From positions 1 through 64,000 of the forward strand of contig NZ_SMAF01000004.1 of assembly GCF_004343305.1 (NCBI RefSeq): DNA of 64,000 nucleotides, in the 5' to 3' direction. The position numbers and the translations under genes were made by a program. Positions within the stretch are counted from its first letter, which is position 1, and each line of letters starts with the position of its first letter. The notes under the pieces were generated by a model, which ran no database searches, was not told the origin of the DNA, and saw only the letters and a list, made by a program, of their open reading frames with translations. This DNA comes from Pseudofulvimonas gallinarii (GTDB lineage Bacteria > Pseudomonadota > Gammaproteobacteria > Xanthomonadales > UBA2363). This document shows, piece by piece, positions 20,459-36,920 of the stretch.

Positions 20459-23400
20459 ATGCGCCGCCTATTCGTTGCATGCATCGCCATGGCGACCACC
20501 ATCGCCGCGGCTGCGCCGCCATGGTCGACCGACGACGACAGGACTCCGAAGGTGACCGACCCCTCGGTGCCGATCACCTACGTCGGCGGCGACGGCAGCA
20601 TTTCCATCGGATTCAATGCCGAAGGCGAGACCGAAGGCCAGCTGATGGGCGTCTTCGGCCGCAACGACGAGCACGCCGTGGTCGGCCAGCTGTGGTGGGA
20701 CCGCAGCGGCGCCGGCGGCGTCCAGGGCGACTACAACTGGCTCTGGGGCGCCACCGCCGACGAAGTGCGCGAGGATCCCTCGAAGGCGGCGGTGGCGCGC
20801 CTGTCCTTTGCGATCGTCCAGAACGGCGACCACAACCGCAAGGCGACCCTGGGCTTCGGCATCGAGCGGCCGAACTACGCGGTCGACGCTTACCTGTCGC
20901 GCGGATTCGGTGGCGGCCGATCCGCCGGCAGCAGGTTCAACGACATCGCGCGCCCGGTCACCGGCAGCGACGAGATCGGCGCCTACACCGAAATGGAGAT
21001 CACCACGATCGAAACGCTGCTGGCGACGAAGGCCTACGACACCGAGGTCGGCGTGCAGTTCAGCCATGTCTTCGACCCGCTTGGCATGCGCGTTTACGGC
21101 GGCGCCGGCCTGCAGGACGGCGACGGCGCCGCCCGCGCGGCCATCTATTCGATCGGCCTGGACTCCCCGCTCGGCCGCCGCGGCTGGGCCATGACGGCGC
21201 GGGCCGAGCACCAGCGTCGCGAAGGCGACTTCGAGGACGAACATTCCGACACGCGGCTATCGTTCTTCCTGCGCTACCAGTTCGGCCGCAACGGAGTCTT
21301 CGTGCCCAGCACCGGCCAGGCCAGCCCGGCATGGGTGCAACGCGCCTTCGGCCGGCCCTCGAACGCCGCCCCGCGCACCGTCGATTCCTATGTCACCTCG
21401 GCCGGCACGCGCGTCAGCGTCAGCCAGGGCCCGCGCGAATACAGCAACTACTTCCCTGTTGCCCAGCCGGACAGTGCAACGACCCGACGTGGAACGGCTG
21501 TCGCCATCGCCGTGCTGGCCAACGACGGCGATCCCGATGGCGATCCGCTGGTCCTCACTGGCGTCAGCCAGCCGGCCAACGGCAATGCGGCCATCCAGGG
21601 CATGCAGGTCGTGTACACGCCGGACCCGGATTTCATTGGCGTCGACACCTTCACGTACACCGTGGCCGATCCGGATGGCGGCACCGGCGGCGCCACCGTC
21701 ACCGTCACGGTCGAGGAACAGCCGGATCCCAACCGTGCCCCGGTGGCCCGTGACGACCAGGTGGTCGCACAGGCCGACACGGCGGTCAGCATCGACGTAC
21801 TGGCCAATGACGAAGATCCGGACAACGACAGGCTGGTCCTGGTCGAAGCCGGACCGGCAGCCAACGGAACGGTAGTGGCTTCCGGTGACCGGGTCATCTA
21901 CACGCCGCTCCCCGGTTTCGTCGGCACGGACAGCTTTGCCTACACCATCAGCGATGGCCGCGGTGGTACTGCTACGGCAACGGTCGTGGTCACGGTCACG
22001 CCGGCGCCGAACCGGCCACCGGTCGCCAGCAGCGACGGCGCCAACACCACCGTCAATACGCCGGTCAGCATCGACGTGCTCGCCAACGATTTCGATCCGG
22101 ATGGCGATCCACTCGTGATCTTCGCCACCAGCGCGCCGTCGTCCGGCACCGCCGTCGTGGCCGGCAACGTGGTCGTCTATACGCCGGCGGCCGGATTCAC
22201 CGGCAACGATGCGTTCTCCTATACGGTCGGCGACCTGCGAGGCGGCATCGACACCGGCTTCGTCAGCGTCCGCGTCGACGCCGCGGCGAACACGCCGCCG
22301 GTTGCCGTCAACGACACCACCACGACGACCAGCGGCACGGCGATTTCCATTCCCGTGCTGGCCAACGACAGCGATCCCGACGGCGATCCGCTGACGATCA
22401 TCGCGGTGGGCACGCCGGCGCTGGGCACGGCGTCGATCGCCGGCGCGAACATCCTCTACACACCGGGTGCCGGCCTCGTGGGCGCCGACAGCTTCAGCTA
22501 CACCATCGACGACGGCAACGGCGGCCAGGCCAGCGCGACGGTCACGGTGAACGTGCTGCCGCCGGTGAACCTGCCGCCCGTCGCCGTCAATGACACCCGC
22601 ACCATCCTGCTGGGCGCGCCGACCAGCATCGATGTGCTGGCCAATGACAGCGATCCCGATGGCGATCCGCTGACGATCGTGTCGGTGACGACGCCAGCGG
22701 CCGGCACGGCGACGATCAGCGGCAACATGGTGGTCTACACGCCAGCCGTCCCGTTCCCGGGCACCGACAGCTTCGACTACACGATCAGCGACGGCAACGG
22801 CGGTTTCGCGACGGCGACGGTGTTCCTTGCAGCCGCGGTGAACAACCCGCCGGTGGCGGTCAACGATACCCGCACGGTCCCGCCGGGCGTCCCGACGGCC
22901 ATCGACGTACTGGCCAATGACAGCGATCCGGACGGCGACCCGCTGACCATTGTCTCTGTGACGACACCGGGCGTCGGCACGGCATCGATCAGCGGCAACA
23001 TGGTGATCTACACCGCTGTTGCCGGTGGCCCGGCGGCTGACACCTTCGATTACACGGTCAGTGACGGCAACGGCGGCTTGGCGACGGCGACGGTGTCCAT
23101 CGCGATCAGCACGGTGAACCAGCCACCGGTTGCCGCCAACGATGCCGCGACGACCTCCGAAAGCGTTCCGGTGATGATCCCGGTGCTGGACAACGACAGC
23201 GATCCCGATGGCGACCCGCTCACCCTGGTGTCGGTGACCACGCCGGTGTCCGGCACTGCAAGCATCGTCGGCAACATGGTCGAGTACGTACCGGAAGCCG
23301 GCTTCGTCGGCGCGCTGACGTTCCAGTACACCATCAGCGACGGCAATGGCGGCACGGCCACGGCGACGGTCACGGTCACGGTGACGCCGGTCAACCAGGC

Positions 23401-23941
23401 GCCGGTCGCCCTGGATGACAACGTCACCATCGACCCGGCCACCTCGGCCACGATCAACGTGCTCGCCAACGACTTCGATCCGGATGGCGATCCGCTGACC
23501 ATCGTCGCGGTCGGTCCGCCGTCCAGCGGCAGCGCCGTCATTTCCGGCAGCGTGATCGTCTACACCGCCATCGCCGCGTTCCCGGGAGCCGACGAGTTCA
23601 CCTATACGATCAGCGACGGCAACGGTGGCACCGCCACGGCGCTGGTCCGCGTCACCGGCGCCCCGCCGAACCAGCCGCCGGTCGCCAACGACGACGTCGC
23701 CGTCACCGATTTCGGCACGCCTGCCGTGATCCAGGTGCTCAACAACGACTTCGATCCGGATGGCGATCCGCTGCTGATCATCTCGACCACGCAACCTGCC
23801 AATGGAATCGTGTCGTTCAACAACACCACGGTGACCTACAGCCCCAACGGCGGTTTCACCGGGGTCGACGCATTCACCTACACGATCAGCGACGGGCGCG
23901 GCGGCACCGCGACGGCCACGGTGCTGGTCGCCGTGAACTGA
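20459..23941 (+). CDS. Predicted surface protein: N-terminal beta-barrel-like domain plus nine cadherin-like repeats
   Basis: The 1160-residue protein has a signal peptide (MRRLFVACIAMATTIAAAAP). Residues about 35-310 show around twelve alternating amphipathic strands (SISIGFNAE, HAVVGQLWW, RKATLGFGIE, YAVDAYLSRGF, GWAMTARAEHQ, TRLSFFLRYQFG), suggesting an outer-membrane barrel. From about residue 332 to the last residue run nine Ig/cadherin-like repeats of about 92 residues. Each has VLANDSDPDGDPL, a likely calcium loop, and YTISDGNGG. There is no C-terminal anchor or type I secretion tail. Barrel first and Ig passenger last is the layout of inverse autotransporters such as intimin/invasin. 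That assignment is inference. GGGAGG precedes the ATG. Confidence 0.75.
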   Translation: MRRLFVACIAMATTIAAAAPPWSTDDDRTPKVTDPSVPITYVGGDGSISIGFNAEGETEGQLMGVFGRNDEHAVVGQLWWDRSGAGGVQGDYNWLWGATADEVREDPSKAAVARLSFAIVQNGDHNRKATLGFGIERPNYAVDAYLSRGFGGGRSAGSRFNDIARPVTGSDEIGAYTEMEITTIETLLATKAYDTEVGVQFSHVFDPLGMRVYGGAGLQDGDGAARAAIYSIGLDSPLGRRGWAMTARAEHQRREGDFEDEHSDTRLSFFLRYQFGRNGVFVPSTGQASPAWVQRAFGRPSNAAPRTVDSYVTSAGTRVSVSQGPREYSNYFPVAQPDSATTRRGTAVAIAVLANDGDPDGDPLVLTGVSQPANGNAAIQGMQVVYTPDPDFIGVDTFTYTVADPDGGTGGATVTVTVEEQPDPNRAPVARDDQVVAQADTAVSIDVLANDEDPDNDRLVLVEAGPAANGTVVASGDRVIYTPLPGFVGTDSFAYTISDGRGGTATATVVVTVTPAPNRPPVASSDGANTTVNTPVSIDVLANDFDPDGDPLVIFATSAPSSGTAVVAGNVVVYTPAAGFTGNDAFSYTVGDLRGGIDTGFVSVRVDAAANTPPVAVNDTTTTTSGTAISIPVLANDSDPDGDPLTIIAVGTPALGTASIAGANILYTPGAGLVGADSFSYTIDDGNGGQASATVTVNVLPPVNLPPVAVNDTRTILLGAPTSIDVLANDSDPDGDPLTIVSVTTPAAGTATISGNMVVYTPAVPFPGTDSFDYTISDGNGGFATATVFLAAAVNNPPVAVNDTRTVPPGVPTAIDVLANDSDPDGDPLTIVSVTTPGVGTASISGNMVIYTAVAGGPAADTFDYTVSDGNGGLATATVSIAISTVNQPPVAANDAATTSESVPVMIPVLDNDSDPDGDPLTLVSVTTPVSGTASIVGNMVEYVPEAGFVGALTFQYTISDGNGGTATATVTVTVTPVNQAPVALDDNVTIDPATSATINVLANDFDPDGDPLTIVAVGPPSSGSAVISGSVIVYTAIAAFPGADEFTYTISDGNGGTATALVRVTGAPPNQPPVANDDVAVTDFGTPAVIQVLNNDFDPDGDPLLIISTTQPANGIVSFNNTTVTYSPNGGFTGVDAFTYTISDGRGGTATATVLVAVN
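21452..23938 (+). repeat. Nine tandem cadherin-like repeats (period about 276 bases)
   Basis: The repeats encode units beginning PPVAVNDT or a variant and ending with ATATVxVxV, about 92 residues each. Units 5 and 6 are closest to each other, sharing LANDSDPDGDPLTIVSVTTP. Units 1-3 and 9 are more diverged, which points to recent expansion of the middle of the array. It is in-frame protein repetition, not a CRISPR or satellite. Confidence 0.9.
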
Positions 23942-24139: not shown

Positions 24140-24997
24140 GTGTTTTCCCGCTACATGAACGGCGAACCCCCCAGTAGTACGCAACCTTCCCGCTCCTGGC
24201 TGGAGCGACTCGGCCACATGCTCGGCGGTGAACCGCAGAGTCGTGAGGAGCTCATCGACGAGCTGCGCGCCGCGCAAAGCAACGGCCTGCTTGCAGCCGA
24301 CACGCTCGCAATGATCGAAGGCGCGCTGCGCGTCACCGACCTGCGCGTGGCCGATGTCATGATCCCGCGCGCACAGATGGTGTCGATTCCGCTCGATGCC
24401 ACCTACGACGACATACGCGCCGTGGTGATCGAATCGGGGCATTCGCGTTTTCCGGTACATGGCGAGGACCGCGATGAAATCGTCGGCATCCTGCTCGCGA
24501 AAGACCTGCTGAAGGTCCCGGCCTGCGACCACGGCCGCTTCGCCCTCGGGCCGATGCTGCGTCCGGCGGTGCTGATTCCCGAAAGCAAGCGCCTGAACCT
24601 CCTGCTGACCGAATTCCGCGCCAGTCGCAACCACATGGCCATCGTCGTCGACGAGTACGGCGGCGTCGCCGGCCTGATTACGATCGAGGACGTGCTGGAG
24701 CAGATCGTCGGCGACATCGACGACGAGCACGATGCCGACGATGCCACGGTCGTGCACATCCAGCCGGATGGCGACGGCTGGAAGGTCAGCGCGCTGACGC
24801 CGATCTCCGAATTCAATGCCCGCTTCGACTGCCAGTTCTCCGACGAGGACTACGACACGGTCGGCGGTCTGGTGACGGCGACCGCGGGCTACGTACCGGA
24901 GACCGGCGAAACCATCGAGATTGGCGGCTTCCGTTTCCAGGTCGCCCAGGCCGACGATCGCCGCGTGCACATGTTCACGCTGGCCTCGGCGAGCTGA
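24140..24997 (+). CDS. corC: CorC/YbeX family CBS-domain protein
   Basis: This 285-residue cytoplasmic protein has tandem CBS domains (VADVMIPRAQMVSI near residue 72, and NHMAIVVDEYGGVAGLITIEDVLEQIVGDI near 165-200). A C-terminal CorC/HlyC domain follows (DTVGGLV, then PETGE). CorC/YbeX has been linked to magnesium/cobalt efflux and to ribosome metabolism. It lacks the membrane DUF21 domain, so it is the short YbeX type. Either GTG 24140 or ATG 24155 could start it. Its stop overlaps the next ATG (TGATG). The usual neighbour lnt is absent; a DUF4105 gene follows instead. Confidence 0.9.
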   Translation: MFSRYMNGEPPSSTQPSRSWLERLGHMLGGEPQSREELIDELRAAQSNGLLAADTLAMIEGALRVTDLRVADVMIPRAQMVSIPLDATYDDIRAVVIESGHSRFPVHGEDRDEIVGILLAKDLLKVPACDHGRFALGPMLRPAVLIPESKRLNLLLTEFRASRNHMAIVVDEYGGVAGLITIEDVLEQIVGDIDDEHDADDATVVHIQPDGDGWKVSALTPISEFNARFDCQFSDEDYDTVGGLVTATAGYVPETGETIEIGGFRFQVAQADDRRVHMFTLASAS

Positions 24998-26307
24998 TGC
25001 CTGCGCAGACCGGCCACCAGGGAATGTTCCCGGGTGGCCAGGCGTTCCTGCTGTGCATGCTGATATGGCTCTGCGGCAGCCTCGCGCAGGCCGCGGAGCC
25101 GGTGCCGCCGGCGGCGGAAGGCATGAGCGTCGCCGCGAACGACGCCGAAGCGGCGGCGGACGGCACGGACCTGCCCGATCCGACACCGGCCGCGACGGTC
25201 GCCCTGGCCACCATTGCGCCCGGCGAGATCTACTGGGAGCGTTTCGGCCACAACATGCTGCTGGTCACACCACCCGGCAGGGAAACGCTGTCCTTCAATT
25301 TCGGCTATTTCGATTTCGAACAGCCGGGTTTCATCCGCCGCTTCATCCTCGGGCGCATGCTCTACCAGGCGCTGGCCTTCGCGGCCGAGGACGACCTGGC
25401 GGCCTATGTGTCCGATGACCGCGGCATCGTCGTGCAGGATCTGGCGCTGACACCTCGGCAGGCGGATGACCTGCTGCGATCACTCGTCGACGCGGTGCGT
25501 CCGGAAAACCGTGACTACCTGTACGAGTACTTCCGCGCCAACTGTTCGACGCGCGTACGCGACGCCATCGACTCGGCGCTGGGTGGCGGACTGCGCCGGC
25601 AGACCTCCGGCCGCTCGCGCGGATTCACCTACCGCATGCATGCGGCAAGGCTGGCCAAGGACGACGCCTGGCTGGCACTGAGCATCGATCTTGGCCTGGG
25701 CCCGGACACCGACCGCCGCCTGAGCCTGTGGGAGGAAATGTTCATTCCGGGCATGTTGCAGCGTTACCTCCGCGATGTCGTCAACAGCGAAGGCGAACCG
25801 CTGGTGACGAACGAGCGCGTGCTGCATCCCGGTCGTGGCAATGCGCCGGCCGAGCTGCCGCCGGATCGGCGCACGTCAATGGCCGTCACCGGCCTGTCCG
25901 TCGCAGTGCTCCTCCTGTGGCTGTCGTCACGTGCCCGGGCGCGCCGGGGCGCTGCACGCGCACTGGAATTCACCGCATTCCTGCTGCACCTGCTGTTCGG
26001 CGTAGCCGGCGCCGTGCTGCTGTTCCTGTGGCTGGGCACCGACCATGTCGCTGCGCATCGGAATGAAAACCTGATGCTGCTCAATCCTCTAAGTCTGGCG
26101 CTTGCGGCGTTGTGGCTGCTTGGACCGCGCGCCACAAAGTCTGGAAATACCCTCGCCTGGCTGGTAGGGTTGTCGGCCATGTGCGGGCTGGCGGTCAAGG
26201 TCGTGCCCGACACGTTCATCCAGCAGAACCTGCATTGGTGTCTGCTTTTCATCCCGATTCACGTATCCCTGCTTGTCGCCTGGAGGCGAAGCACCGTGAC
26301 CAGATGA
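24997..26307 (+). CDS. DUF4105 membrane protein
   Basis: The 436-residue protein starts with an N-terminal hydrophobic segment (AFLLCMLIWLCGSLAQA). A periplasmic DUF4105 domain follows, with the family motifs YWERFGHNML, FNFGYFDF and YEYFRANCSTRVRDAID. The conserved His and Cys in these motifs suggest an NlpC/P60-like papain-fold catalytic site, which would be acylhydrolase or peptidase-like, but no activity is proven. About four membrane segments occupy residues 290-430. The ATG at 24997 overlaps the corC TGA. Its own stop is overlapped by the GMC start, so all are translationally coupled. Confidence 0.82.
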   Translation: MPAQTGHQGMFPGGQAFLLCMLIWLCGSLAQAAEPVPPAAEGMSVAANDAEAAADGTDLPDPTPAATVALATIAPGEIYWERFGHNMLLVTPPGRETLSFNFGYFDFEQPGFIRRFILGRMLYQALAFAAEDDLAAYVSDDRGIVVQDLALTPRQADDLLRSLVDAVRPENRDYLYEYFRANCSTRVRDAIDSALGGGLRRQTSGRSRGFTYRMHAARLAKDDAWLALSIDLGLGPDTDRRLSLWEEMFIPGMLQRYLRDVVNSEGEPLVTNERVLHPGRGNAPAELPPDRRTSMAVTGLSVAVLLLWLSSRARARRGAARALEFTAFLLHLLFGVAGAVLLFLWLGTDHVAAHRNENLMLLNPLSLALAALWLLGPRATKSGNTLAWLVGLSAMCGLAVKVVPDTFIQQNLHWCLLFIPIHVSLLVAWRRSTVTR

Positions 26308-27776
26308 TTGTCGACCTGCTGGACCAGACGCGCCTGCCCCTGCAGGACTGTGATGTGTGCATCCTCGGTGCCGGTCCTGCCGGCATCACCTTGGCACTCA
26401 CCCTCGCCCGACTGCGTCCGGACTGGCAGATCGTCCTGGCCGAAGGCGGCGGCGAATCGCTGCCGACACCCGACGAGAACGACAGCTACCGACCCGCGGG
26501 GGACGATCCCGGCGTGTATCCGGTGGGCGCGACGCGACTGCGTTTCCTCGGCGGCACCAGCAACCATTGGGGCGGCTGGTCGCGACCGATGGACCCGGAC
26601 ATCTTCGAGCCGCGCGACTGGCTGGGCAATGGTGGCTGGCCGATCGCGCACGCCGAACTCGCGCGCCATTACGACCATGCCGCGACATGGTGCGAGATCG
26701 GCAGCAACGACTACGACGCCGACACCCATCTGGAACCCTGGCGTGATGCGCTCCTGGATGTCAGTGGCTCATCCCTGCTCTGCCACAAGCTGTTCCGCTT
26801 CAGTCCGCCCACGCGTTTCGGCGTCCGCTACCGCCCGGACCTGCAGGACGCCAGCAACGTCCAGTGCTGGTTGAATGCCACGGCCGTCGGCCTGGGCATG
26901 CGGGGTGACCGGATCCATGAGGCCGAGCTGGCCAACCGCACTGGACTGCGGGCGCGCCTGAAGGCGCGCCACTTCGTTGTCGCGATGGGCGGCATCGAGA
27001 ACGCGCGATTCCTGCTGGCCGCCGCAGCCGGCGGCGCGCCGTCGGACAGCGGTCTCGCCTCGCCTGCCCTGGGACGGTACTTTGCAGACCATCTCGGTTT
27101 CGCACCGGCGCTCGTTCTGCTGCCGGCACGACTGGAATACGGACGCCGCTCGCACGAGTCCGGACCCGTGATGCCGATCCTGTCGCTGAAACCGGAAGCG
27201 CAGCGCGAACTGGAGCTGGGCAATTTCGCCATCACGCCCGTCGCGCACGCGGATGACCAGTTGATCCCGCACCGCTACGGTCGAAACGAAGCGCTGGGAC
27301 TGCGCGGCGATGATTGCTGGTGGTACCGGATGCAGGTCGTCCTCGAGCCGCAGCCCGACCCCGACAGCCGGATCTCTCTCAGTGGCGAGCGCGACGCGCT
27401 GGGTGTTCCGCGCCTGCGCATCGACTGGCACATGCTCGACAGTGACCGCGAACGCGGCGACCGGTTGTTGCAGGCGCTGGCCAGTGAATGGGGCAGCCGT
27501 CGCACCGGCCGCGTGCGACTGATGCCGCCGGAACTCGCCTTTGAACGCAGTCCCACTTTCGTCGCCCACCACATGGGCGCCACGCGAATGGGCGCCGACG
27601 CCGAGGGCAGCGTCGTCAACGGCGACTGCCGCGTCCATGGCATCGAGAACCTGCACGTCGCCGGCTCTTCGGTGTTTCCATCGTATGGTTTCAGCAACCC
27701 GACGCTGACCATCGTCGCGCTGGCCCTGCGCCTGGGCGAACAGCTGTCCGGCCGCAGTGGAACGGGTACAGCGTGA
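26304..27776 (+). CDS. GMC-family FAD-dependent oxidoreductase
   Basis: This 490-residue flavoprotein belongs to the choline-dehydrogenase-like GMC family. The FAD Rossmann motif GAGPAG is at 22-27. GGTSNHWGGW is the flavin-loop segment. HHMGATRMG carries the catalytic His region, and HVAGSSVFPSYGFSNPTLT is the C-terminal family signature. It would oxidise an alcohol or sugar; the substrate is unknown. It has no signal peptide, yet the next, overlapping gene encodes a Tat-type lipoprotein. Export as a folded complex on that partner, as in fructose and gluconate dehydrogenases, is plausible. ATGA overlaps with the upstream gene. Confidence 0.88.
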   Translation: MIVDLLDQTRLPLQDCDVCILGAGPAGITLALTLARLRPDWQIVLAEGGGESLPTPDENDSYRPAGDDPGVYPVGATRLRFLGGTSNHWGGWSRPMDPDIFEPRDWLGNGGWPIAHAELARHYDHAATWCEIGSNDYDADTHLEPWRDALLDVSGSSLLCHKLFRFSPPTRFGVRYRPDLQDASNVQCWLNATAVGLGMRGDRIHEAELANRTGLRARLKARHFVVAMGGIENARFLLAAAAGGAPSDSGLASPALGRYFADHLGFAPALVLLPARLEYGRRSHESGPVMPILSLKPEAQRELELGNFAITPVAHADDQLIPHRYGRNEALGLRGDDCWWYRMQVVLEPQPDPDSRISLSGERDALGVPRLRIDWHMLDSDRERGDRLLQALASEWGSRRTGRVRLMPPELAFERSPTFVAHHMGATRMGADAEGSVVNGDCRVHGIENLHVAGSSVFPSYGFSNPTLTIVALALRLGEQLSGRSGTGTA

Positions 27777-28864
27777 TGGAACGCCGCGAATTCATCACCG
27801 GCAGCCTGGGCGGCCTTTCACTGATCGCACTGGCCACCACCCTTCCCGGCTGCCGCAGCGGCCCGGCGGCACCCGTTGTCGAACCGGTGCAGGGCCTGCT
27901 CGACTCGCAGGCACTGGCTGTCATCCAGCAGTTGCGTGGAACGACGCCGGTGGCGCTGGCATGGAAGGCACGCCATGGCGGCGGTGAAAGCCCGGACCGT
28001 GAAGAACTGGAGCGTCGCCTGCTGGCGATGCTCGAAACCGACGAGCCCGTCCATGCATCGGCGCCGCACTTCAGCGAGCGGCTGGCGGCGGCCGTCAGCC
28101 GCGACTTCGAGGCCGGCAGGCTCTGCGAGATCGAAGGCTGGCTGCTCAGCGAGACCGAATGCCTGGCCGCGACCTTGCGACTCGTGCTGTACGGGGAAAC
28201 GGAACCCGCGGGCGCGACCGACTGGCGCCAGGGAGAGCTGGCCGAAGTCGTCGACTGGGGCCCTCGGGAAACGACGCGCGGCGTGGGCGTCAACGTGCAG
28301 CCGGACGGCCACTCCGGACTCTGGTTCAAGATCGATCATGCGCCCTCCTGGCTGAAGATCGAAATCGACGGCGTGGTGGCGCCGACCGTGATATCCGAAG
28401 CCGTGGTGACGTCCGGACTGTACGGAGAACTGCGCGACCGCATCCTGGATGCCCCGGGCGAGTACCCCATCGCCCTGGTCGATCCGATGCAGCGCATCCG
28501 GCAACCCATCGGGCACTTCGTCGTGAAGGCACCGCCGCCCTATCTGGTCCTCGAAGACGGCTCGACCTCGGTGTTCTGCGCCGTGGAAGCATGGGGCCCC
28601 GATGTCACCTTCGCCGGCCGCCCCAGCAATCCGCAGCGGGAGGGTCACGAAGGACTGTGGATCCGAACGGCGTGTGCGCCCGACCAGGTACAGGTCCTTT
28701 ACGACGGCGATGCGCTGGTGACCACCAACGATCGCGGCAACGGCCTGATTACGGCACTCCTGCCACCCAGCCACTTCGCAGTCGCACGCGAAGCCCGTCT
28801 ACAGCTCCACGACATGGAAACCGGCGAAGTCCTCGATGTCGGCGTACTCGTCGTGAAGGATTGA
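27776..28864 (+). CDS. Tat-signal lipoprotein, probable GMC oxidoreductase partner
   Basis: The 362-residue protein has a twin-arginine start (MERREFITG, R3-R4) and a lipobox LPGC with C26. Residues about 40-140 are helical and end in GRLCEIEGWLLSETE, resembling small subunits encoded beside GMC dehydrogenases. Residues about 160-362 look like two beta-sandwich units (VGVNVQPDGHSGLWF, and LVLEDGSTSVFCAVEAWGP). I do not recognise that part as a named family. The ATG at 27776 overlaps the GMC stop (TGATG); a GTG at 27773 is the alternative. The likely role is to carry and anchor the flavoenzyme outside the inner membrane, which is inference. Confidence 0.6.
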   Translation: MERREFITGSLGGLSLIALATTLPGCRSGPAAPVVEPVQGLLDSQALAVIQQLRGTTPVALAWKARHGGGESPDREELERRLLAMLETDEPVHASAPHFSERLAAAVSRDFEAGRLCEIEGWLLSETECLAATLRLVLYGETEPAGATDWRQGELAEVVDWGPRETTRGVGVNVQPDGHSGLWFKIDHAPSWLKIEIDGVVAPTVISEAVVTSGLYGELRDRILDAPGEYPIALVDPMQRIRQPIGHFVVKAPPPYLVLEDGSTSVFCAVEAWGPDVTFAGRPSNPQREGHEGLWIRTACAPDQVQVLYDGDALVTTNDRGNGLITALLPPSHFAVAREARLQLHDMETGEVLDVGVLVVKD

Positions 28865-29001
28865 AATCCCTGTGGCGGTCCGGACGGCGTAAGCGCCGCC
28901 CCATCGTGGCCGCCGTGCGCCCCTGCCGCTGCTTTTCACCCGGCCCGCTCCATCCAGTGCGGGATCGACGGGCGCAAGGCACATATCGATCAGCTTCCTG
29001 T

Positions 29002-29022
29002 ATATTGGCAAGCTTCCAATAT
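29002..29022. promoter_or_regulatory. AT-rich inverted repeat before the GT-C-like gene
   Basis: ATATTGG (29002-29008) and CCAATAT (29016-29022) form perfect 7-bp arms around CAAGCTT. TATATT at 29001-29006 resembles a -10 box. It is the most AT-rich spot in the 204-base gap and lies 47 bases before the next ATG. It could be an operator or promoter. Confidence 0.4.
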
Positions 29023-29068
29023 CCCCCGATGATCCAGCATCGGATCTTGTCACGCCATTGTCAGGTGC

Positions 29069-31291
29069 ATGAACGCAGGACGCGGATCGACCAGCAGATC
29101 GCAGCAGCCGTGGTGGGACTTCCTCATACCGGTGGCCGTCATCACCGCCCTGGCGATCGTCGCCTGGGATCTGCTGGTGGTGAAAGGCATGAACTGGCAT
29201 CTGAGCCAGCCCAGTGCCGTCGAGGGCGGAATCGAGGCGCTGGCGCTGCTGGGCTGCCTGGCGCTGGCGGCAGCGCGACGCCGGCGCGGCATGATTCTCA
29301 TGGCCGTCGCGGTGACCCTTGTTTTCCTTCGCCGGCACAATGCCGAGCTCACGCTGCTGTCAGGCCTCTTCATCATGGAAAGCCTGTACGCGATCGGGGC
29401 GATGCTGCGCCGGACGCCGGGAGCCAAAGCGGCCGACCCGGCCGGCGCCGACATCTTCCCCGCATTCATCGCCGGGACGGGTGCGTGGGTTCTTGCCGTC
29501 GCCACACTCTCGCTTTTCAGCCTGGCGACCCCTGCCCATCTCGGCTGGCTCTTGCTGGCCATCGGCATCGCTGCAATCGCCGCTCACCCTAATCCGCTTT
29601 GCATCCAGCTGTTCCGCGCACTGCGATCGCGCCCCAGGTCGGACTGCGTGAAGGCAAGTCTGCTGCTCGGATGGCTGCTGATCCTCATGGCGCGAACGGC
29701 GAACGTGATCGGCCATGACACCGTCTGGTACCTCGGCCAGGGCGACCGCCTGCTCGCGCCGGGCGGATCGATCTTCCAGCCCCTTTCGCTGGTGGCGCCG
29801 GTGCACTATTTCCCGAAGCTGTGGGAAGTGCTGCTGTTGCCATTGACGTCGTTTGACCAGCTGCGGCCGCAGACCGGACTCGCCATCGCCGTCGGTGCCC
29901 TGTTCTGGATTGCCCTTTGGCAACTGGCAACGCAATTGGGAATCACGCGCCGCTGGCGATGGTGGGCGCTCTGGATCATTGCGACGCTGCCCGCCGTCGC
30001 CAACACGGCGTTGACGCTCAAGAGCGACACACTCTGCGCGCTGTTCATGGCGGTGATGTGCCTGCAACTGCTTGACTGGTTCCAGCGGCGAAGACCGCCA
30101 GCGCTGGGCTATGCGCTGGCCGCGGCGGCGCTTGCCTGTTCGACCAAGCTGACCGCCATTCCCTACGTCGGCATGGGCTTCATCGTGCTGGTCGCACACG
30201 AGCTCACACTCAGTCGGATGGCAACAGGCTGGCGACCGGAAAAAACGGCTGCCGCTGCCGAGCCGGTACGCGCTGTCGTCATCACGACGACACTGGCCCT
30301 GCTTGCCGCGCTGGTGCTCCTTGCGCGCACCTGGGCCCTCGCCGGCGTCCCTACGATCGGCCCTGACGCCCTGCTGTCACTCTGGAACGCCCTGGGCATG
30401 CACATCGCCGAGCCGGCCGGCACGCTCAACTGGACGCGGCCGCAAGACTGGTCCGATGTGCCCGCCCTGTTCCACGACTGGCTGTTTGCACCGAGCACCA
30501 TGCCGAAGATGCCGATCGGCTGGACCGGCAACATCTGGGCTGTGCTGTCCGTGCTGTCGCTTGCTGCCGCGGCGATGGGCCGCGAACCACGTGGGGCTGG
30601 GCCACCCTCTCCCTGGTCGCGGGTGCTGCTGCTGGTGCTGGCGCTGACCGGACTGTTGCTGGCCATCGCCTGGCGCTACCACTCGCGCGGCAGCGACGGC
30701 AATTACTTCATGCTGCCCGTGGCGCTCGCCACGCTGCTCGCGATGCGCGCAGCGTCCTCACGCCTGGGCGACGCGGGCCGCCGCACCGGTGCGATACTCG
30801 CGACGACACTGCTGCTGACCGGGCTGGTCCACGCCACCCATTCCTTCATCAGTGCCGGATGGGGACAGCCGGGCACGCGCCCTTTCGATAGCCAGTTCGG
30901 GAAGACCCCGTTCGAAACCGGAGCGTGGCGGGAGCGCATCCTCCAGCGCGCGGGCGTTTCGGGCATTGCGCGGCGCCTTGCCTCGCGTCCGGCCTGGGAA
31001 CGCGGCATCGGCTTCGACCCGCGAGACGAACAGTACTTTGCGGCCCTGCCGATCGCCGTGGAGGAGATCCGCAGCATCGGCTATTCCCGACCCGCCTACG
31101 TTCGGGATGGCGGCGCCCTGCTCGAATTCATGGACCTGTGGGGCATCCAGCATGTCGTCTTGCCACCCGACGAGGGATCGCCGCCAGCCATCGCCGACTA
31201 CCGTCGGGCACTTCTTGCAGCGGGCTGGCTGTCGTTCGGGGACGCCGGCGCAACCTTGTATTCCCGGCCGGGTGCATTCAGCGGACAATGA
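29069..31291 (+). CDS. Polytopic membrane protein, GT-C glycosyltransferase-like
   Basis: This 740-residue protein has many hydrophobic segments through about residue 600, then a soluble C-terminal domain of about 130 residues. After three N-terminal helices comes NVIGHDTVWYLGQGDRLL. An acidic residue in this first large loop is the hallmark of GT-C (ArnT/PMT-like) enzymes that use lipid-linked sugars. The SDTLCALFMAVMCLQL helix and long re-entrant loops also fit. I cannot name donor or acceptor. It starts 204 bases after the Tat-lipoprotein gene and may belong to the same surface-glycan function. Confidence 0.6.
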   Translation: MNAGRGSTSRSQQPWWDFLIPVAVITALAIVAWDLLVVKGMNWHLSQPSAVEGGIEALALLGCLALAAARRRRGMILMAVAVTLVFLRRHNAELTLLSGLFIMESLYAIGAMLRRTPGAKAADPAGADIFPAFIAGTGAWVLAVATLSLFSLATPAHLGWLLLAIGIAAIAAHPNPLCIQLFRALRSRPRSDCVKASLLLGWLLILMARTANVIGHDTVWYLGQGDRLLAPGGSIFQPLSLVAPVHYFPKLWEVLLLPLTSFDQLRPQTGLAIAVGALFWIALWQLATQLGITRRWRWWALWIIATLPAVANTALTLKSDTLCALFMAVMCLQLLDWFQRRRPPALGYALAAAALACSTKLTAIPYVGMGFIVLVAHELTLSRMATGWRPEKTAAAAEPVRAVVITTTLALLAALVLLARTWALAGVPTIGPDALLSLWNALGMHIAEPAGTLNWTRPQDWSDVPALFHDWLFAPSTMPKMPIGWTGNIWAVLSVLSLAAAAMGREPRGAGPPSPWSRVLLLVLALTGLLLAIAWRYHSRGSDGNYFMLPVALATLLAMRAASSRLGDAGRRTGAILATTLLLTGLVHATHSFISAGWGQPGTRPFDSQFGKTPFETGAWRERILQRAGVSGIARRLASRPAWERGIGFDPRDEQYFAALPIAVEEIRSIGYSRPAYVRDGGALLEFMDLWGIQHVVLPPDEGSPPAIADYRRALLAAGWLSFGDAGATLYSRPGAFSGQ

Positions 31292-31692
31292 GCAATGTGC
31301 ATCCCACGATCCCACGACACCCGCGCAGGCGACGCGCGGGGAATCGCGGGATTGAGCGCGGTCCGGTCGGACCACTGCAGCGGCGGTTCAATCCGGGCAG
31401 CCGCATCGTGCCCGGCGCCAGGCGCAGCCGCTCGGCGTTGCGCGGCGGGTCGGGCCGTTCGGCCCCCGGCATCAGTCCGGTCGGGACAGGAACCGGCGCG
31501 CACGGGCCCGCGCCCGTAACGGGATCTACGGCGGTACGGGACAGTTTCCGGCTGCGCCAATGCACCTCGGATACAGCACAACCATCCGCCCTTTTGCAGA
31601 CCGGATGCCGGCCATCCACTTGAACACCACATGCACGCGTCCTTGCGTGGGATAGCATGGACCCGGTCCCCTTGACCGTCTGGCACTAACCC
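31292..31692. other. Gene-free stretch between the two large membrane protein genes
   Basis: These 401 bases contain only open frames that lack plausible starts or protein-like composition on either strand. One short stem, GGGCC-GTTC-GGCCC, lies near 31450 and could end the upstream transcript. I see no convincing promoter, RNA gene or repeat. Confidence 0.5.
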
Positions 31693-33447
31693 ATGGTTGG
31701 CAACGCCGTCCAACGTCTACCGCGCCCCAGTGCGAACATCGTTTTCCTCCCAGTTGCCGCTGTTTTCGTCGTTCTTGGACTGGTCGCCATTGCCAAGTAC
31801 GGGTGGACCGAGATCCATGCCGACCAGTGGCGGCTCTATCGCATCTACCTGGAAAAGCCCTTTCCCGCCGACATCCTGACCCTGGAGAACGGCCATCGGC
31901 CGGTTTTCCCGGCCCTGCTGCGCGTGGTGGAGATGGAATGGCTGCTTGCCAACCAGGTCCTGCAGCTGGCTGTGGGCGCCCTTCTCGCCCTGTGTACCGT
32001 CCTACTCCTGGCCCATGTCGCGCGGCACGATGATTCATTGCCCGCGGCGTGCCGCGGCGCCGCCATTGCCATGGCGGCATTCGGCATTTTCTGGATGGGG
32101 AATGCCCGCTACCTGCTGCACGGCAACGAATCGGTCCACGGCTACCTGCTGACCACCTGCCTGGCTGGCGGGCTGCTGCTGGTCACCGGAAGCAGGCAGG
32201 GCGCGAGGCCGCTGCTGTCGGCGCTGCTGCTGGCCTTCATCGCCACCTTCAGCTTTGGCCCCGGCATGGCGACCTTCGTCGCGCTCGGGATGGTGCTGGC
32301 AATCCAACGCCGGTACCGCCTCCTGCCCTGGCTCGCCGCGGGCTTGGCGATGACGGTGACGCTGTATTTCCTGTTGCCGGGCGGTACCGGCGTCCGCGAC
32401 CGGCTCGCCTTCGATCCGGTCCTGACCCTGACGACAGCCGCCACCTGGCTGTGCTCCGCGCCGGTGAACATGCTGCTGGCCTTCATCGACCCCAAGGTTG
32501 GCAGCTACCTTCCGGATTTGATCAAACCGGTCGCCGCCGCCAGTTCAGGACTGTACGAACGGGCATTTGGTTCGATCTGGAGCAATCACCGACATGTTGC
32601 CGTCGCCGGCCTGTCAGCGATCGCCTACGTCACCTGGGCAAGCGTCGACACCTGGAGGCACCGGCTCGGCTCCCGCACGTTGCTGGTCGCCCTGGGCCTG
32701 GCATGGTTCGCCATCGCCGCCTCGATCATCGTCGCGCTGGCACGGGCCGACTACTTCGTGCAGTTTCCGGAACAGATCTTCGCCACCCGGTTCCTGCCCT
32801 GGTCCAGCCTTTTCTGGATGGCTGTCACCTGGATCGCACTCGTCCGCGGCAGCCGGGCAACGGCGGCGGGGAAGCCGCGCCTGGCCACGGTTTTCGTGGC
32901 GCTTGCGCTGGCGACCGGACTGGCCACGGGCATCGGCTATGTCGGCTGGGGACACCGGGTCCAGAAGGATATCCGCCTGGTGGCCACCGGCCTGGCTGTG
33001 GGCGTGTTGCCCGTCAACGGGGGCCGCTACGGCGAGACCTATCTGAACGAGGTGCTGGAAGGACTGCCGGCGGTACGTAGCGCTGGCCTGTCCATGTTTG
33101 CCTGGCCCGAGTCGCGCATGCAGGGCCGCCGGATCACATGGGCAGCCACCGAGGCCTGGCCGGATCCGCCGGTCATCGAGTTCGATGACGTGGACAACGA
33201 ACTACCCGACGCGCCGGCATGGGAAATCCGGTTCACCGCGCCTGCGGGCGAAGGCAGGCGACGGCTGCTGGCCGTCGATGCGGAACACCGTGTCGTCGGT
33301 TTGTTGTCCCGCTTCGTCGAGGGCGACAGCATCCGGTTCAGGGGCTATGTGGTCGGGCTGGACGACAAGCGCGGCCTCCGCATCGCGAGTCTCGACAAGG
33401 ATGGTCGCATCCGCTGCCATGCCAACTGCATGCCGGCCGTCGATTGA
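31693..33447 (+). CDS. Polytopic membrane protein of unknown function
   Basis: The 584-residue protein has about eleven hydrophobic segments from residue 16 to about 440. A soluble beta-rich C-terminal domain of about 140 residues follows. After the first helix comes the loop EIHADQWRLYRIYLEKPF and then LENGHRPVFPALL. An acidic loop after helix 1 again resembles GT-C membrane glycosyltransferases, but similarity is loose and I do not recognise the family. It lies in the same direction as the preceding GT-C-like gene and has a similar overall plan, so the two may act on related surface molecules. Confidence 0.55.
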   Translation: MVGNAVQRLPRPSANIVFLPVAAVFVVLGLVAIAKYGWTEIHADQWRLYRIYLEKPFPADILTLENGHRPVFPALLRVVEMEWLLANQVLQLAVGALLALCTVLLLAHVARHDDSLPAACRGAAIAMAAFGIFWMGNARYLLHGNESVHGYLLTTCLAGGLLLVTGSRQGARPLLSALLLAFIATFSFGPGMATFVALGMVLAIQRRYRLLPWLAAGLAMTVTLYFLLPGGTGVRDRLAFDPVLTLTTAATWLCSAPVNMLLAFIDPKVGSYLPDLIKPVAAASSGLYERAFGSIWSNHRHVAVAGLSAIAYVTWASVDTWRHRLGSRTLLVALGLAWFAIAASIIVALARADYFVQFPEQIFATRFLPWSSLFWMAVTWIALVRGSRATAAGKPRLATVFVALALATGLATGIGYVGWGHRVQKDIRLVATGLAVGVLPVNGGRYGETYLNEVLEGLPAVRSAGLSMFAWPESRMQGRRITWAATEAWPDPPVIEFDDVDNELPDAPAWEIRFTAPAGEGRRRLLAVDAEHRVVGLLSRFVEGDSIRFRGYVVGLDDKRGLRIASLDKDGRIRCHANCMPAVD

Positions 33448-33570
33448 ATACGGCAACGCCAGCGATGTCGACCCGCGGGCCGGCGCACGAGCATCAGGCC
33501 GGGGTCCCCTGAAGGGTAGCGCCGGTGCCGCCGGCTCGGACAGATCAGCAGTCGGAAGGACAGCCTTGTT

Positions 33571-33595
33571 CGTGCCGCCGGTCGCGGCCGGCACG
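33571..33595 (-). terminator. Hairpin between convergent genes
   Basis: CGTGCCG (33571-33577) and CGGCACG (33589-33595) pair perfectly, with further inner G-C pairing. It lies 5 bases past the minus-strand methyltransferase stop and between two convergent genes, so it could serve both. No T run is seen. Confidence 0.4.
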
Positions 33596-33599
33596 CGGG

Positions 33600-34652
33600 T
33601 CAGCGCAGGCTGGGATGGACGCTGGCCTCGGGCGTGATGCCACGGCTGCAGAAACGCCGCTGCGCCGGCTCCGTCGCCAGCACCGCGAGCATGTGCGTCG
33701 GGGTCAGCCGTCCCTCGGCCAGGCCGGCTTCGTCGTAGGCATGCAGGCGGTCGACGAAGGCGCGGTCCCACTCGGCGTCGGCATTGAAGTTGTGACCGAA
33801 GTTGCGGTCGACGAAGACATCGATCACGTTGCCGAAGCCGATGAAACAGTGGAAATGCAGTCGTTGCAGCAGTGCCGGAACGATATCCTGGGCACGGATG
33901 CCCTCGAAGCCTTCGTGCGAGCAATCCCAGTTGATGTACTGCGGCTCGTGGCGCTTCAAGGCCTGGTTGTAGCGGTAGGCATCCGGCAACTCTGTCCAGA
34001 ACGACTGCACCGCCCTCAGTGCCTCCGGCCAGCGCGCATGACCGTTGCGGCCGATGATGTCGCTGACCACGAACAGGGCGCCATCAGCCAGGCAGTCATG
34101 TACGCTGGCGAACAGGGCCTCCAGCTCCACCACATGATGCAGCGACTGGTTGGCCATCACACCGTCGAAAGTCCGACCCGGCCGCCAGTGGTTGAAATCC
34201 CCATGCAGCGGCCGGATATGCGCGGCCACGCCTTCGGCTTCGGCCAGCGCCATGCCGCGCGCCAGCATCGCCGGGTTGATGTCCAGACAATGGATGACAA
34301 AGTCCTGCAAGCCCTGTTCGCGCAGCAGTTTCGCCACGCGCACCTCGGTGTCGCAGTTGCCTGCGCCGATGCTCACAAATTGAGCAGCCGCCCCGCTATT
34401 TCCATTTTGGGCACTTTGCATCAGGAAGCGGGCGAAGAACTGGTCGGGATTGGACGCCCCGACCTCCTCGATCATCGGCCGGATATAGGTATCCGACCAG
34501 TAGTGGAAGATTTCCGGAAGCGCGTTGACATCAACGCAGGCGGAGTAGTTGGCCAGCTCCTGCTGCAGCCGCCGGTCGTAGGCATCGCCCGTCTCCGCGG
34601 CGCGGACCTTTCGCAGCCATCGCGCCACCGATTTCAGTGCACACATCGGCAT
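33600..34652 (-). CDS. Class I SAM-dependent methyltransferase
   Basis: The 350-residue protein has SAM motif I FVSIGAGNCD (residues 92-101). CLDINPAML supplies the acidic residue that binds the ribose. DGVMANQSLHHVVE is motif IV and ADGALFVVSDIIG follows. The first 90 residues form a helical cap. The family resembles small-molecule or lipid methyltransferases, but the substrate is unknown. The start could be ATG 34652 or ATG 34646. It lies only about 10-16 bases after the S9 peptidase stop on the same strand and may be co-transcribed with it. Confidence 0.8.
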   Translation of the reverse strand: MPMCALKSVARWLRKVRAAETGDAYDRRLQQELANYSACVDVNALPEIFHYWSDTYIRPMIEEVGASNPDQFFARFLMQSAQNGNSGAAAQFVSIGAGNCDTEVRVAKLLREQGLQDFVIHCLDINPAMLARGMALAEAEGVAAHIRPLHGDFNHWRPGRTFDGVMANQSLHHVVELEALFASVHDCLADGALFVVSDIIGRNGHARWPEALRAVQSFWTELPDAYRYNQALKRHEPQYINWDCSHEGFEGIRAQDIVPALLQRLHFHCFIGFGNVIDVFVDRNFGHNFNADAEWDRAFVDRLHAYDEAGLAEGRLTPTHMLAVLATEPAQRRFCSRGITPEASVHPSLR

Positions 34653-34662
34653 CTCTATAACT

Positions 34663-36729
34663 TCACCGAGCCGGCTTCTCGACCAGCCACTGCGTCAGCC
34701 AGGCGTTGACGGTGTCGTGCCAGAGGATGGAGTTGGCCGGCTTGAGGATCCAGTGGTTCTCGTCCGGGAAGCGCAGGAAGCGGCTGGGAATGCCCTTGCG
34801 CTGCAGCGCCGTGAAGGTGCTGATGCCCTGCTCCAGCGGCACGCGGAAATCGAGATCGCCGTGCACCACGAGCATCGGCACGCGCCACTTGGCGACGTGG
34901 TTGGCGGGATTGAACTGCTCGTAGACCTCCGGCGTCTCGTAGTACGGGCGACCGCCGTGCTCCCATTCGTCGAACCACAATTCCTCGGTGGCGTAGTACA
35001 TGGTGCGCGCGTCGAAGATGCCGCTGTGGTTGACCAGGCACTGGAAGGCATCCGGCCAGTTGCCGGCGATCCAGTTGATCATGTAGCCACCGTAGGATGC
35101 ACCCAGCGCGCAGACCTTGTCGCCATCCAGCCAGTCGTACTTGGCGAGCGCGGTGGCCAGCCCCTTCTGCAGGTCGACCAGCGGCTTGCCGCCCCAGTCG
35201 GTGCGGATGGCATCGGTGAACGCCTGGCCATAGCCGGTGGAACCGTGGAAGTCGATGAACACGGCAGCGAAGCCGGCGCCGGTGTAGGTCTGCGGATTCC
35301 AGCGGTAATGCCAGTGGTTGCCCATCGAGCCCTGCGGGCCGCCATGGATGATGAAGGCGACCGGATAGCGCTTGCCCTGCTCGTAGTTCCACGGCTTGAC
35401 GACATGACCGTACACCGTGGCGTCATTGGCACCGTAGAAGCTGAACTGCTCATAGGCTCCGAAGGCGACATCCTGCAGGCGCTCGCGGTTGAGCTGCGTC
35501 AGCGGCTGCACGTTGCCGCCCTGCAGGTCCATGCGGAACAGGTCGGCCGGCGTGGTCAGGTCGTCATAGACATAGACCAGGTCCCTGGCGCCGACGGCGA
35601 CCGCGCCGACATAGCCGACGTCATTGAGCGCGCGCACCGTGCCCTTGGCGATGTCGATGGCGAACAGGCGATGCTGGCCAAGCTCGTCAGCGGTGACATA
35701 CAGCGTCTTGCCATCGGGCGAGAACGCCAGCGAACCCGCCGAACGATCCCAGTCGGCGGCCAGCTCGCGGGTTTCGCCGCTGGCGAGGTCGCGCAGCAGG
35801 ATGCGCTGGCGGTCGGCCTCGTATTTAGGCCGCGACATCGCCAGGTAGGCCAGCGTCCTGCCGTCCGGCGACACCACCGGCGTGCTGTCGCTGGCGTCGT
35901 TGTCGTCGGTCAGGTTCACCGGACGACGACTGCCGTCCACCGGCGCCTGCCAGATGTCGAGGTTGGTGGACAGCGGCTCCAGCGCGGCATCGACGTCGCG
36001 CAGCACGAAGAACACGCTGCTGCCATCGGCGCTGAAGGTGAAGTCGCCATCGCCGCCGAAGGGCTTGGAGGGCGTGTCGCCGTTCAGGCCCTTGCTGACC
36101 CAGACCGGCGTGCCGGCCTTGCCGTCGCGACCGATGTCGGCGACGAACAGCTGCGAGCGCGTGCCGTCCTTCCAGGTGTCCCAGTGACGCACGAACAGAC
36201 TGTCATAGACGTGGCCGCTGGCCTTCTCCGAGGCACGCGCCTCGTTGCGCTGCACCGTGCAGGCAATGTCGGCGCAGTCGAGGAACATGTCCATCGACAC
36301 GGCGATCCTGCGACCGTCGCGGCTCAGTCCATAGGCACCGATGCCGAGCGGATAGCTGGTCACCTGCTCGGCCTCGCTGCCGTCCAGCGGCAGGCGCCAT
36401 ACCTGCGCCGAGCCGGACTTGCCGGACACCGCATAGAGCCGGCCGTCACCCGCGAAACGCGCGCTGGACCAGCTTTCGCCGGCCGGCGTCAGGCGGACCG
36501 CCTCGTCGTCGCGGCGGTCAAGGCGACGCAGCCACAGGCTGTTGACGCCCTTGTTGTTCTCCAGGTCGGTCTCGCGCACGGCATAGACCAGCAGCGTGCC
36601 GTCCGGGGAAACCTGTGGGTCGGACACGCGTTCCAGGGTGACCAGGTCGCGGACATCGAATCCGCGGGTGTCGGCCAGTGCGGGCACGGCGACAAGGGAA
36701 CACAACACGGCGGCAGTCAATGCGCGCAT
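34663..36729 (-). CDS. Secreted S9-family prolyl oligopeptidase/dipeptidyl aminopeptidase
   Basis: The 688-residue protein has a signal peptide (MRALTAAVLCSLVAVPALA). A TolB-like beta-propeller with several SPDGxxL blades spans about 30-410, and an alpha/beta-hydrolase domain follows. The catalytic triad is S545 (GASYGGYM), D627 (HGDLDFRVP) and H659 (ENHWI). It should cleave short peptides in the periplasm. I used the ATG at 36729, which has GGAG 7 bases upstream; the frame runs open further upstream without a signal peptide. It is divergent from an OPT transporter gene, which suggests a peptide-use pair. Confidence 0.9.
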   Translation of the reverse strand: MRALTAAVLCSLVAVPALADTRGFDVRDLVTLERVSDPQVSPDGTLLVYAVRETDLENNKGVNSLWLRRLDRRDDEAVRLTPAGESWSSARFAGDGRLYAVSGKSGSAQVWRLPLDGSEAEQVTSYPLGIGAYGLSRDGRRIAVSMDMFLDCADIACTVQRNEARASEKASGHVYDSLFVRHWDTWKDGTRSQLFVADIGRDGKAGTPVWVSKGLNGDTPSKPFGGDGDFTFSADGSSVFFVLRDVDAALEPLSTNLDIWQAPVDGSRRPVNLTDDNDASDSTPVVSPDGRTLAYLAMSRPKYEADRQRILLRDLASGETRELAADWDRSAGSLAFSPDGKTLYVTADELGQHRLFAIDIAKGTVRALNDVGYVGAVAVGARDLVYVYDDLTTPADLFRMDLQGGNVQPLTQLNRERLQDVAFGAYEQFSFYGANDATVYGHVVKPWNYEQGKRYPVAFIIHGGPQGSMGNHWHYRWNPQTYTGAGFAAVFIDFHGSTGYGQAFTDAIRTDWGGKPLVDLQKGLATALAKYDWLDGDKVCALGASYGGYMINWIAGNWPDAFQCLVNHSGIFDARTMYYATEELWFDEWEHGGRPYYETPEVYEQFNPANHVAKWRVPMLVVHGDLDFRVPLEQGISTFTALQRKGIPSRFLRFPDENHWILKPANSILWHDTVNAWLTQWLVEKPAR

Positions 36730-36920
36730 GGGAGGACTCCAGGACGGCAATACGGTCGGGCGATGGTAGCAGCCGGCCGTTGGCGCCGGCACGGGCGCGA
36801 CAATCACGGCGAATTGCGCTACGGTCCGCGCTGGCGTTGCCGGCCAAGGAATGCGGCGCGCCGACCGGATGGGAGGCCGGCCATCGCATGGTCGATCGCT
36901 CCCGAAGTCGACCCCACTGC

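Follow-up and report, generated by a model that had tools for sequence, protein, structure and literature searches.

A protein family with a predicted GT-C fold and a second, probable GT-C-type glycosyltransferase in a variable gene island of Pseudofulvimonas gallinarii

The glycosyltransferase ORF12 of Citrobacter youngae O1, a member of family GT136, consists of 11 transmembrane (TM) helices, a small domain after TM1 which contains the aspartate D31, and a beta-rich domain after TM11 which binds the glycan; the residues D31, E34, H106 and R349 are needed in vivo (PMC11127046). The same publication describes the three-component Gtr systems of O-antigen glucosylation, which also use a GT-C enzyme (PMC11127046). 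For the FAD glucose dehydrogenase, a GMC enzyme, PMC6719666 describes a Tat hitchhiker subunit that carries the RR export signal.

The stretch of DNA analysed here, referred to as the window, comprises 64,000 nucleotides of P. gallinarii; the genome measures 3.45 Mb, and the window belongs to its contig C4. The genes of interest are arranged in the order ybeY, corC, an lnb-type gene, P0003, P0004, P0001, P0002, a gene of family c6 and an S9 peptidase gene. P0004 and P0001 are separated by a gap of 204 bp, which holds an inverted repeat, and P0001 and P0002 by a gap of 401 bp. The two large polytopic open reading frames, which an earlier note on this DNA had placed downstream of flavoenzyme genes, are indeed present after genes for a GMC oxidoreductase and a lipoprotein-like protein. 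The features are as follows:

24997 to 26307, plus strand: Lnb-type protein (Lnb_N and 5TMH_Lnb), located after corC and bordering the variable stretch on its left.
26304 to 27776, plus strand: GMC-type flavoenzyme P0003; H422/H423 and N465 conserved, signal peptide not evident.
27776 to 28864, plus strand: P0004, partner of P0003; RR motif, lipobox-like N-terminus and two related C-terminal domains.
29002 to 29022, no strand: AT-rich inverted repeat with 7-bp arms and a 7-nt spacer; TATATT at 29001 to 29006 lies over the left arm.
29069 to 31291, plus strand: P0001, polytopic, 740 amino acids, probable GT-C-type glycosyltransferase; N-terminal extension of about 160 residues, EL1-like motif GHDTVWYL, invariant D217.
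31693 to 33447, plus strand: P0002, predicted GT-C fold, 584 amino acids; 11 TM helices, EL1 with invariant D44 and N66-G67-H68-R69, C-terminal beta domain at about residues 485 to 576.
33600 to 34652, minus strand: class I methyltransferase of family c6; converges on P0002.
34663 to 36807, minus strand: S9 prolyl-oligopeptidase-family protein; right border, common to the genomes G001 and G002.

Of 398 genomes of the order, 29 encode a homologue of P0002. Homologues were also seen in named records from Stenotrophomonas, Xanthomonas, Pseudoxanthomonas, Dokdonella, Rudaea and Tahibacter, and in metagenome-assembled genomes labelled Planctomycetota and Betaproteobacteria. A comparison of 18 members with Pfam gave nothing credible (seven families, each matched by one member, best value 0.013), none of the 18 matched NCBIfam, and a search of the P0002 profile against PDB sequences returned 0 hits at E <= 10. 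The AlphaFold2 model, built from 24 sequences, reached a pLDDT of 89.6 and a pTM of 0.91 and predicts 11 TM helices followed by the C-terminal beta domain. Foldseek alone found nothing in the PDB at E <= 0.001; its best matches were OST-type chains (E 3.4e-03 to 1.6e-02), and membrane pyrophosphatases, which do not have a GT-C fold, and AftA appeared from 0.034. Re-ranking of Foldseek's own PDB list with VIA-align, which worked on this list only, placed GT-C-fold chains in all of the best 41 entries, with Z scores from 15.2 to 8.8, and the next row dropped to 6.1. These 41 entries comprise AftB, ALG3, Pmt1/Pmt4, AglB, EmbB, OST, ArnT, PimE, PglB, AftA, DPY19, AftD and GPI-transamidase chains; PIG-U and STT3, which are among the structural matches, are taken here to be GT-C-fold chains as well. 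Because helical models can reach Z scores near 14 merely through a common layout, a caveat of VIA-align, weight is put on the uniformity of the list and on the drop in Z. The modelled membrane core thus supports the assignment of P0002 to the GT-C fold superfamily. The matches of its C-terminal beta domain to PDB entries are weak (Z up to 5.9).

Residue conservation in P0002 was analysed with 17 relatives, leaving out truncated and uncalled hits, and with a larger set of 23 proteins from 22 of 33 loci, from which near-duplicates, partial and uncalled proteins were excluded. The motif HADQWRLY contains D44, which lies in the loop after TM1 of the model and is invariant in both alignments (18 of 18 and 24 of 24 sequences). 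The 22 invariant residues examined, Met1 being excluded, are located on one side of the membrane, in loops or at helix ends toward that side, with W375 near mid-membrane; N, H, R and E residues on this side are invariant in all 24 sequences. By analogy with GT-C enzymes, we assign the conserved side to the periplasm, an orientation which loop charges alone do not settle. In this orientation, D44 would be the acidic residue of the first extracytoplasmic loop after TM1. The model shows the same order of parts as ORF12 of GT136, namely 11 TM helices, an EL1 domain and a C-terminal beta domain. ArnT, PMT and PMT_2 proteins resemble P0002 in the GT-C core (ArnT, 5ezm, Z 12.9) and P0001 in a weak PMT_2 similarity; however, none of their Pfam families is matched by the P0002 family, and P0001 carries a long N-terminal extension.

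At E <= 0.001, a P0001 homologue is present in 21 of 398 genomes, counting two matches that are weak and partial; no relatives were confirmed on viral contigs, and its profile gave 0 hits among PDB sequences at E <= 10. In an alignment of P0001 with 11 relatives (truncated or uncalled hits excluded), D217 within GHDTVWYL is invariant in 12 of 12 sequences, as are W220, Y221, P249, K250, E253, K318 and most of the motif GSDGNYF. P0001 matches PMT_2 (PF13231, cut-off 26.1 bits) with 8.7e-05 and 23.2 bits in one search and with 27.5 bits in the genome search, and two of the 12 members match this family, the best with 2e-07. Among NCBIfam models, the LIC_10190 family is matched by six of the 12 members and the putative glycosyltransferase LA_3751/LA_3752 by two (best 3.3e-07), all scores being under the cut-offs where these are given for P0001. 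P0001 is probably a GT-C-type glycosyltransferase as judged from these similarities; its structure model was built from three sequences only and has a pLDDT of 36.7. The earlier note had proposed the plan of GT-C enzymes for both proteins, with an acidic loop after the first helices and a soluble C-terminal domain. For P0002, all three parts agree with the model: the fold recognised in 41 of the 41 best entries, D44 after helix 1 and a well-modelled C-terminal domain. For P0001, the plan is suggestive only, the C-terminal domain is not well modelled, and the acidic motif follows about seven hydrophobic helices, a count taken from the low-confidence model, rather than the first ones.

The two polytopic proteins had also been called unrelated-looking, which is right at the sequence level: the profile comparison of P0001 with P0002 gave 1.4%. 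Larger sets gave 7-24%, compared with 0.1-1.1% when four membrane families without a GT-C fold (MBOAT, Acyl_transf_3, mgtE and RND) were compared locally. In a global hhalign alignment, which has a probability of 24% (7% in the reverse direction) and a single-pair P-value of 1.6e-4, P0002 covers P0001 beginning near residue 160. The profile signal is considered weak, because the PMT_2 protein c89 and the DUF6311 protein c108 likewise gave 0.3-1.1% against the P0001 and P0002 profiles, which is no closer than the controls. In the global alignment, H and W of the two EL1 motifs match and the two aspartates are one column apart, for which reason the latter are not claimed to be aligned. Recent duplication as the origin of the pair was rejected, since the profile similarity is too weak.

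Upstream of P0001, the flavoenzyme P0003 and its partner P0004 are encoded. P0003 retains H422/H423 and N465, which we take to be catalytic positions of GMC enzymes, in at least 10 of 11 sequences; by inspection, the protein starts at the FAD-binding region, and its best NCBIfam relative is a pyranose oxidase (3.5e-16, far under the model cut-off). Of 11 P0004 sequences, seven have an RR motif near the start, and the remaining four begin later or were cut short in the gene calls; a lipobox-like cysteine is likewise seen in 7 of 11, and the proteins of loci L141 and L149 have the RR motif without such a cysteine. P0004 matched no Pfam family above cut-off and no Pfam or NCBIfam model of a known gamma-subunit family at E <= 1. 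P0004 loci were sampled from 15 of 45 genomes with a match in a first round, followed by 12 further stretches; homologues of P0003 and P0004 occur together in 14 of 15 P0004 loci and also in L169, and in the fifteenth locus 0.5 kb separate the start of P0004 from the end of the contig. Since P0003 has no evident signal and P0004 has the RR motif, it is plausible that both are co-exported like a hitchhiker complex, and a lipid anchor of P0004 is plausible in most, but not all, relatives. The pair resembles the FAD glucose dehydrogenase in that a GMC enzyme is paired with an RR-bearing protein, as read from the sequence. In contrast to the subunit described there, P0004 is larger, lipoprotein-like, has two related C-terminal domains and stands outside Pfam families above cut-off. 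The C-terminal domain of P0004 (about 28220 to 28864, present as two related copies) is found at the end of eight larger proteins in relatives as well, each of which matches the Pfam family Sulfatase (L158, L159, L160, L161, L166, L167 and L168); it is possibly a common docking or glycan-binding domain.

A fixed five-gene operon was considered and rejected, as G001 and G002 lack most of it. Within the genus, the interval between lnb and the S9 peptidase gene holds P0003, P0004, P0001, P0002 and c6 in G000, P0002, c31 and c55 in G001, and remnants of P0002 and c31 in G002. In G001, P0002 adjoins lnb, and the flavoenzyme pair and P0001 are absent from the interval; neither P0001 nor P0004 has a match anywhere in G001 and G002. 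The P0002 relative of G002 (L119, L072) has degenerated: stop codons interrupt it, and an internal portion has been lost. Six genomes of the order carry both P0001 and P0002; the genes are adjacent in three (G000, G290, G327) and apart in three (G030, G268, G333), so that conservation of the neighbourhood, which the earlier note had named as a check, holds for half of them.

Around the relatives of these genes, a recurring pool was observed, which contains GT-C-like proteins, methyl- and acyltransferases, 2OG oxygenases, GtrA-like proteins and sulfotransferases. In Tahibacter aquaticus (L054, also L109) and Tahibacter harae (L055, also L122), P0001 and P0002 are encoded side by side after ptsI, in T. 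harae in a stretch that ends before mgtE. Their company in Tahibacter consists of c6, MBOAT, the SGNH-like c21, an Acyl_transf_3 protein (c37) and c29; in Pfam, c21 scores under the cut-off for its SGNH-like label and c29 has no match. In the genome G090 (L141), the order is mgtE, c37, c6, P0004, P0003 and ptsI, with c6 52% identical to that of the window and c37 51% identical to that of T. harae; its P0001 relative is located on a contig other than that of the flavoenzyme pair. The interval between ptsI and mgtE thus holds the flavoenzyme pair in G090 and both polytopic families in T. harae. The gene ptsI is seen in 13 of the 35 distinct P0002 loci, in 3 of the 14 for P0001 and in 1 of the 11 for the flavoenzyme. 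The ptsI side looks like an envelope-modification hotspot in several genomes of the order (L054, L055, L056, L077, L082, L088, L141).

After removal of 11 duplicate loci, an acyltransferase, methyltransferase, 2OG-oxygenase, SGNH-like or c29 family was found at most six genes away in 18 of 35 distinct P0002 loci, and the other 17 have no labelled modifier within six genes. Pool labels are carried by 11.2% of 409 near genes and 3.2% of 372 far genes, a contrast which is partly built in, because the pool families were picked for recurring at these same loci. A large polytopic protein is the immediate neighbour in 16 of 35 P0002 loci, compared with 8 of 382 genes (2.1%) further off; the locus counts are not independent, because related species are included and six of the 16 are from Stenotrophomonas. 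One type of these neighbours is PMT_2, which P0002 adjoins in Stenotrophomonas (Pfam run on one protein), and two of the 16 (879 and 877 amino acids) carry no assignment. GtrA and GT2 families are encoded a few genes from P0002 relatives in L077 and L088, which together with the GT-C enzyme itself resembles the Gtr systems; in contrast to these, gtrA is not beside P0002, and the two GtrA genes of the source genome lie on contigs C15 and C9, none being found on C4. Of the 14 called P0001 loci, five have a RimK/RLAN ATP-grasp gene next to P0001 and no pool genes. Later neighbourhood labels were obtained by tblastn, because gene calling yielded hardly any genes, or none, for some contigs of lower GC content (L144, L152, L154, L155).

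Family c6 occurs in 63 of 396 genomes at E <= 1e-30, and 40 regions from 39 of these 63 genomes were examined. It accompanies other labelled pool families in 17 of the 40 loci, five of these by a GT2 match of 26-29% only; the full P0003-P0004 pair is present once (L193), and the C-terminal domain of P0004 alone once (L194). In G087, P0003 and P0004 lie at most 4 kb from c6. A set of phosphodiesterase, sulfotransferase and sulfatase genes adjoins P0003-P0004 in 3 of 15 loci (L142, which was the probe source, L145 and L151); three of the 40 c6 loci (L185, L199, L209) have the set next to c6. The flavoenzyme pair keeps pool company in a few genomes. The family c6 is well conserved, many matches being 45-60% identical over most of their length, and Pfam gives general methyltransferase models only. 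The suggestion that the polytopic proteins form one system with the flavoenzyme and the lipoprotein survives as membership of a common pool, as in G090, and fails as a fixed operon, as in G001 and G002. No description of this gene set was found among the paper listings of an open-licence library.

We consider it fairly likely that P0002, and probably P0001, are inner-membrane GT-C glycosyltransferases in a variable island that is filled from a reshuffled pool of envelope-modification genes. The island (26304 to 34652, between lnb and the S9 peptidase gene) would provide P0001, P0002, a methyltransferase and the GMC flavoenzyme with its probably Tat-exported lipoprotein, and relatives would combine the pool differently. 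A sugar may be loaded onto polyprenyl phosphate in the cytosol and then flipped; on the periplasmic side, P0002 and P0001 would move single sugars from such carriers to an envelope glycan. In P0002, catalysis would rely on D44 of the first periplasmic loop as the base, while binding of the acceptor would fall to the C-terminal beta domain. The sugar-transfer steps, with their donor and acceptor, are drawn from the analogy with the GT-C class; the fold prediction and the gene facts stand apart from it. In the most speculative step, the flavoenzyme might oxidise the same glycan. The wider proposal of an extracytoplasmic oxidative glycan tailoring, in which sugars added in the periplasm by a GT-C family that neither Pfam nor NCBIfam names are oxidised there by a GMC flavoenzyme tethered through a lipoprotein, and in which species reshuffle these genes with those for acyl-, methyl- and sulfo-transferases to change their surface chemistry, is in our view rather unlikely as a whole. 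If true, oxidation of an envelope glycan by a tethered periplasmic flavoenzyme would be, in our judgement, an unusual step.

A tenable, if tentative, alternative is that P0001 and P0002 are GT-C enzymes which act separately on different acceptors, the vicinity of the flavoenzyme reflecting a variable insertion site and not a pathway. The separation of both genes in three of the six genomes that carry them, the absence of matches to P0001 and P0004 from G001 and G002, the different habitual neighbours of the two proteins and the 401-bp gap between their genes are in line with this proposal; however, the pool families recur together at different chromosomal sites, between lnb and the S9 gene in this genus and between ptsI and mgtE in others. 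It was also considered that P0001 and P0002 glycosylate proteins, or the lipoprotein P0004, instead of a polysaccharide. In favour of this, the structural matches include many enzymes that glycosylate proteins (OST, PMT, PglB), but the GT-C fold alone says nothing about the acceptor and the neighbours are modifiers of the glycan type (MBOAT, Acyl_transf_3, GtrA/GT2), which makes a protein acceptor improbable. That P0002 has a GT-C fold without a glycosyltransferase role, e.g., as a degenerate or accessory subunit like chain U of the GPI transamidase, a structural match which we take to be a non-transferase subunit of GT-C fold, is very improbable in view of the invariant aspartate after TM1 and the one-sided N, H, R and E residues that are invariant in 24 of 24 sequences.

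On the reading of P0002 as a glycosyltransferase, the locus represents an ordinary enzyme class, GT-C, with a family that has no name in Pfam and NCBIfam, in a reshuffled envelope-modification pool. The model assigns this family to the GT-C class and allows a prediction for a single residue, D44, and the pool links GT-C enzymes with a probably exported flavoenzyme.

The AT-rich palindrome with an overlapping -10-like box, which had been reported in front of the first polytopic gene, was confirmed. The repeat reads ATATTGG-CAAGCTT-CCAATAT (29002 to 29022), its arms are exact over 7 bp, and TATATT overlaps the left arm. AT-rich 7-bp repeats with a loop of 3-12 nt occur once in the 64 kb compared with 0.4 expected from 10 shuffles, and in 0.5% of 3000 shuffles of the 204-bp gap; 7-bp repeats of any composition are found in 16% of the gap shuffles and hence are not rare. 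A promoter scan gave one site in 4.9 kb, compared with 0.5 by chance, and this site overlaps the repeat. The repeat is thus real, single-copy and locally unusual, and it is at most compatible with a role as promoter or operator. An operator of a regulon was rejected, as no second copy exists in the genome at up to two mismatches.

Two observations concern the left flank of the island. The lnb-type gene lies 3' of corC, the place where L166 carries lnt. No Lnt above the family cut-off was found in the source genome (best 32.7 compared with 132.9 bits), and Lnb may therefore replace Lnt in this genome. Between ybeY and corC, which adjoin in G001, the window encodes a large protein (20459 to 23941) with nine Big_9/cadherin-like repeats.
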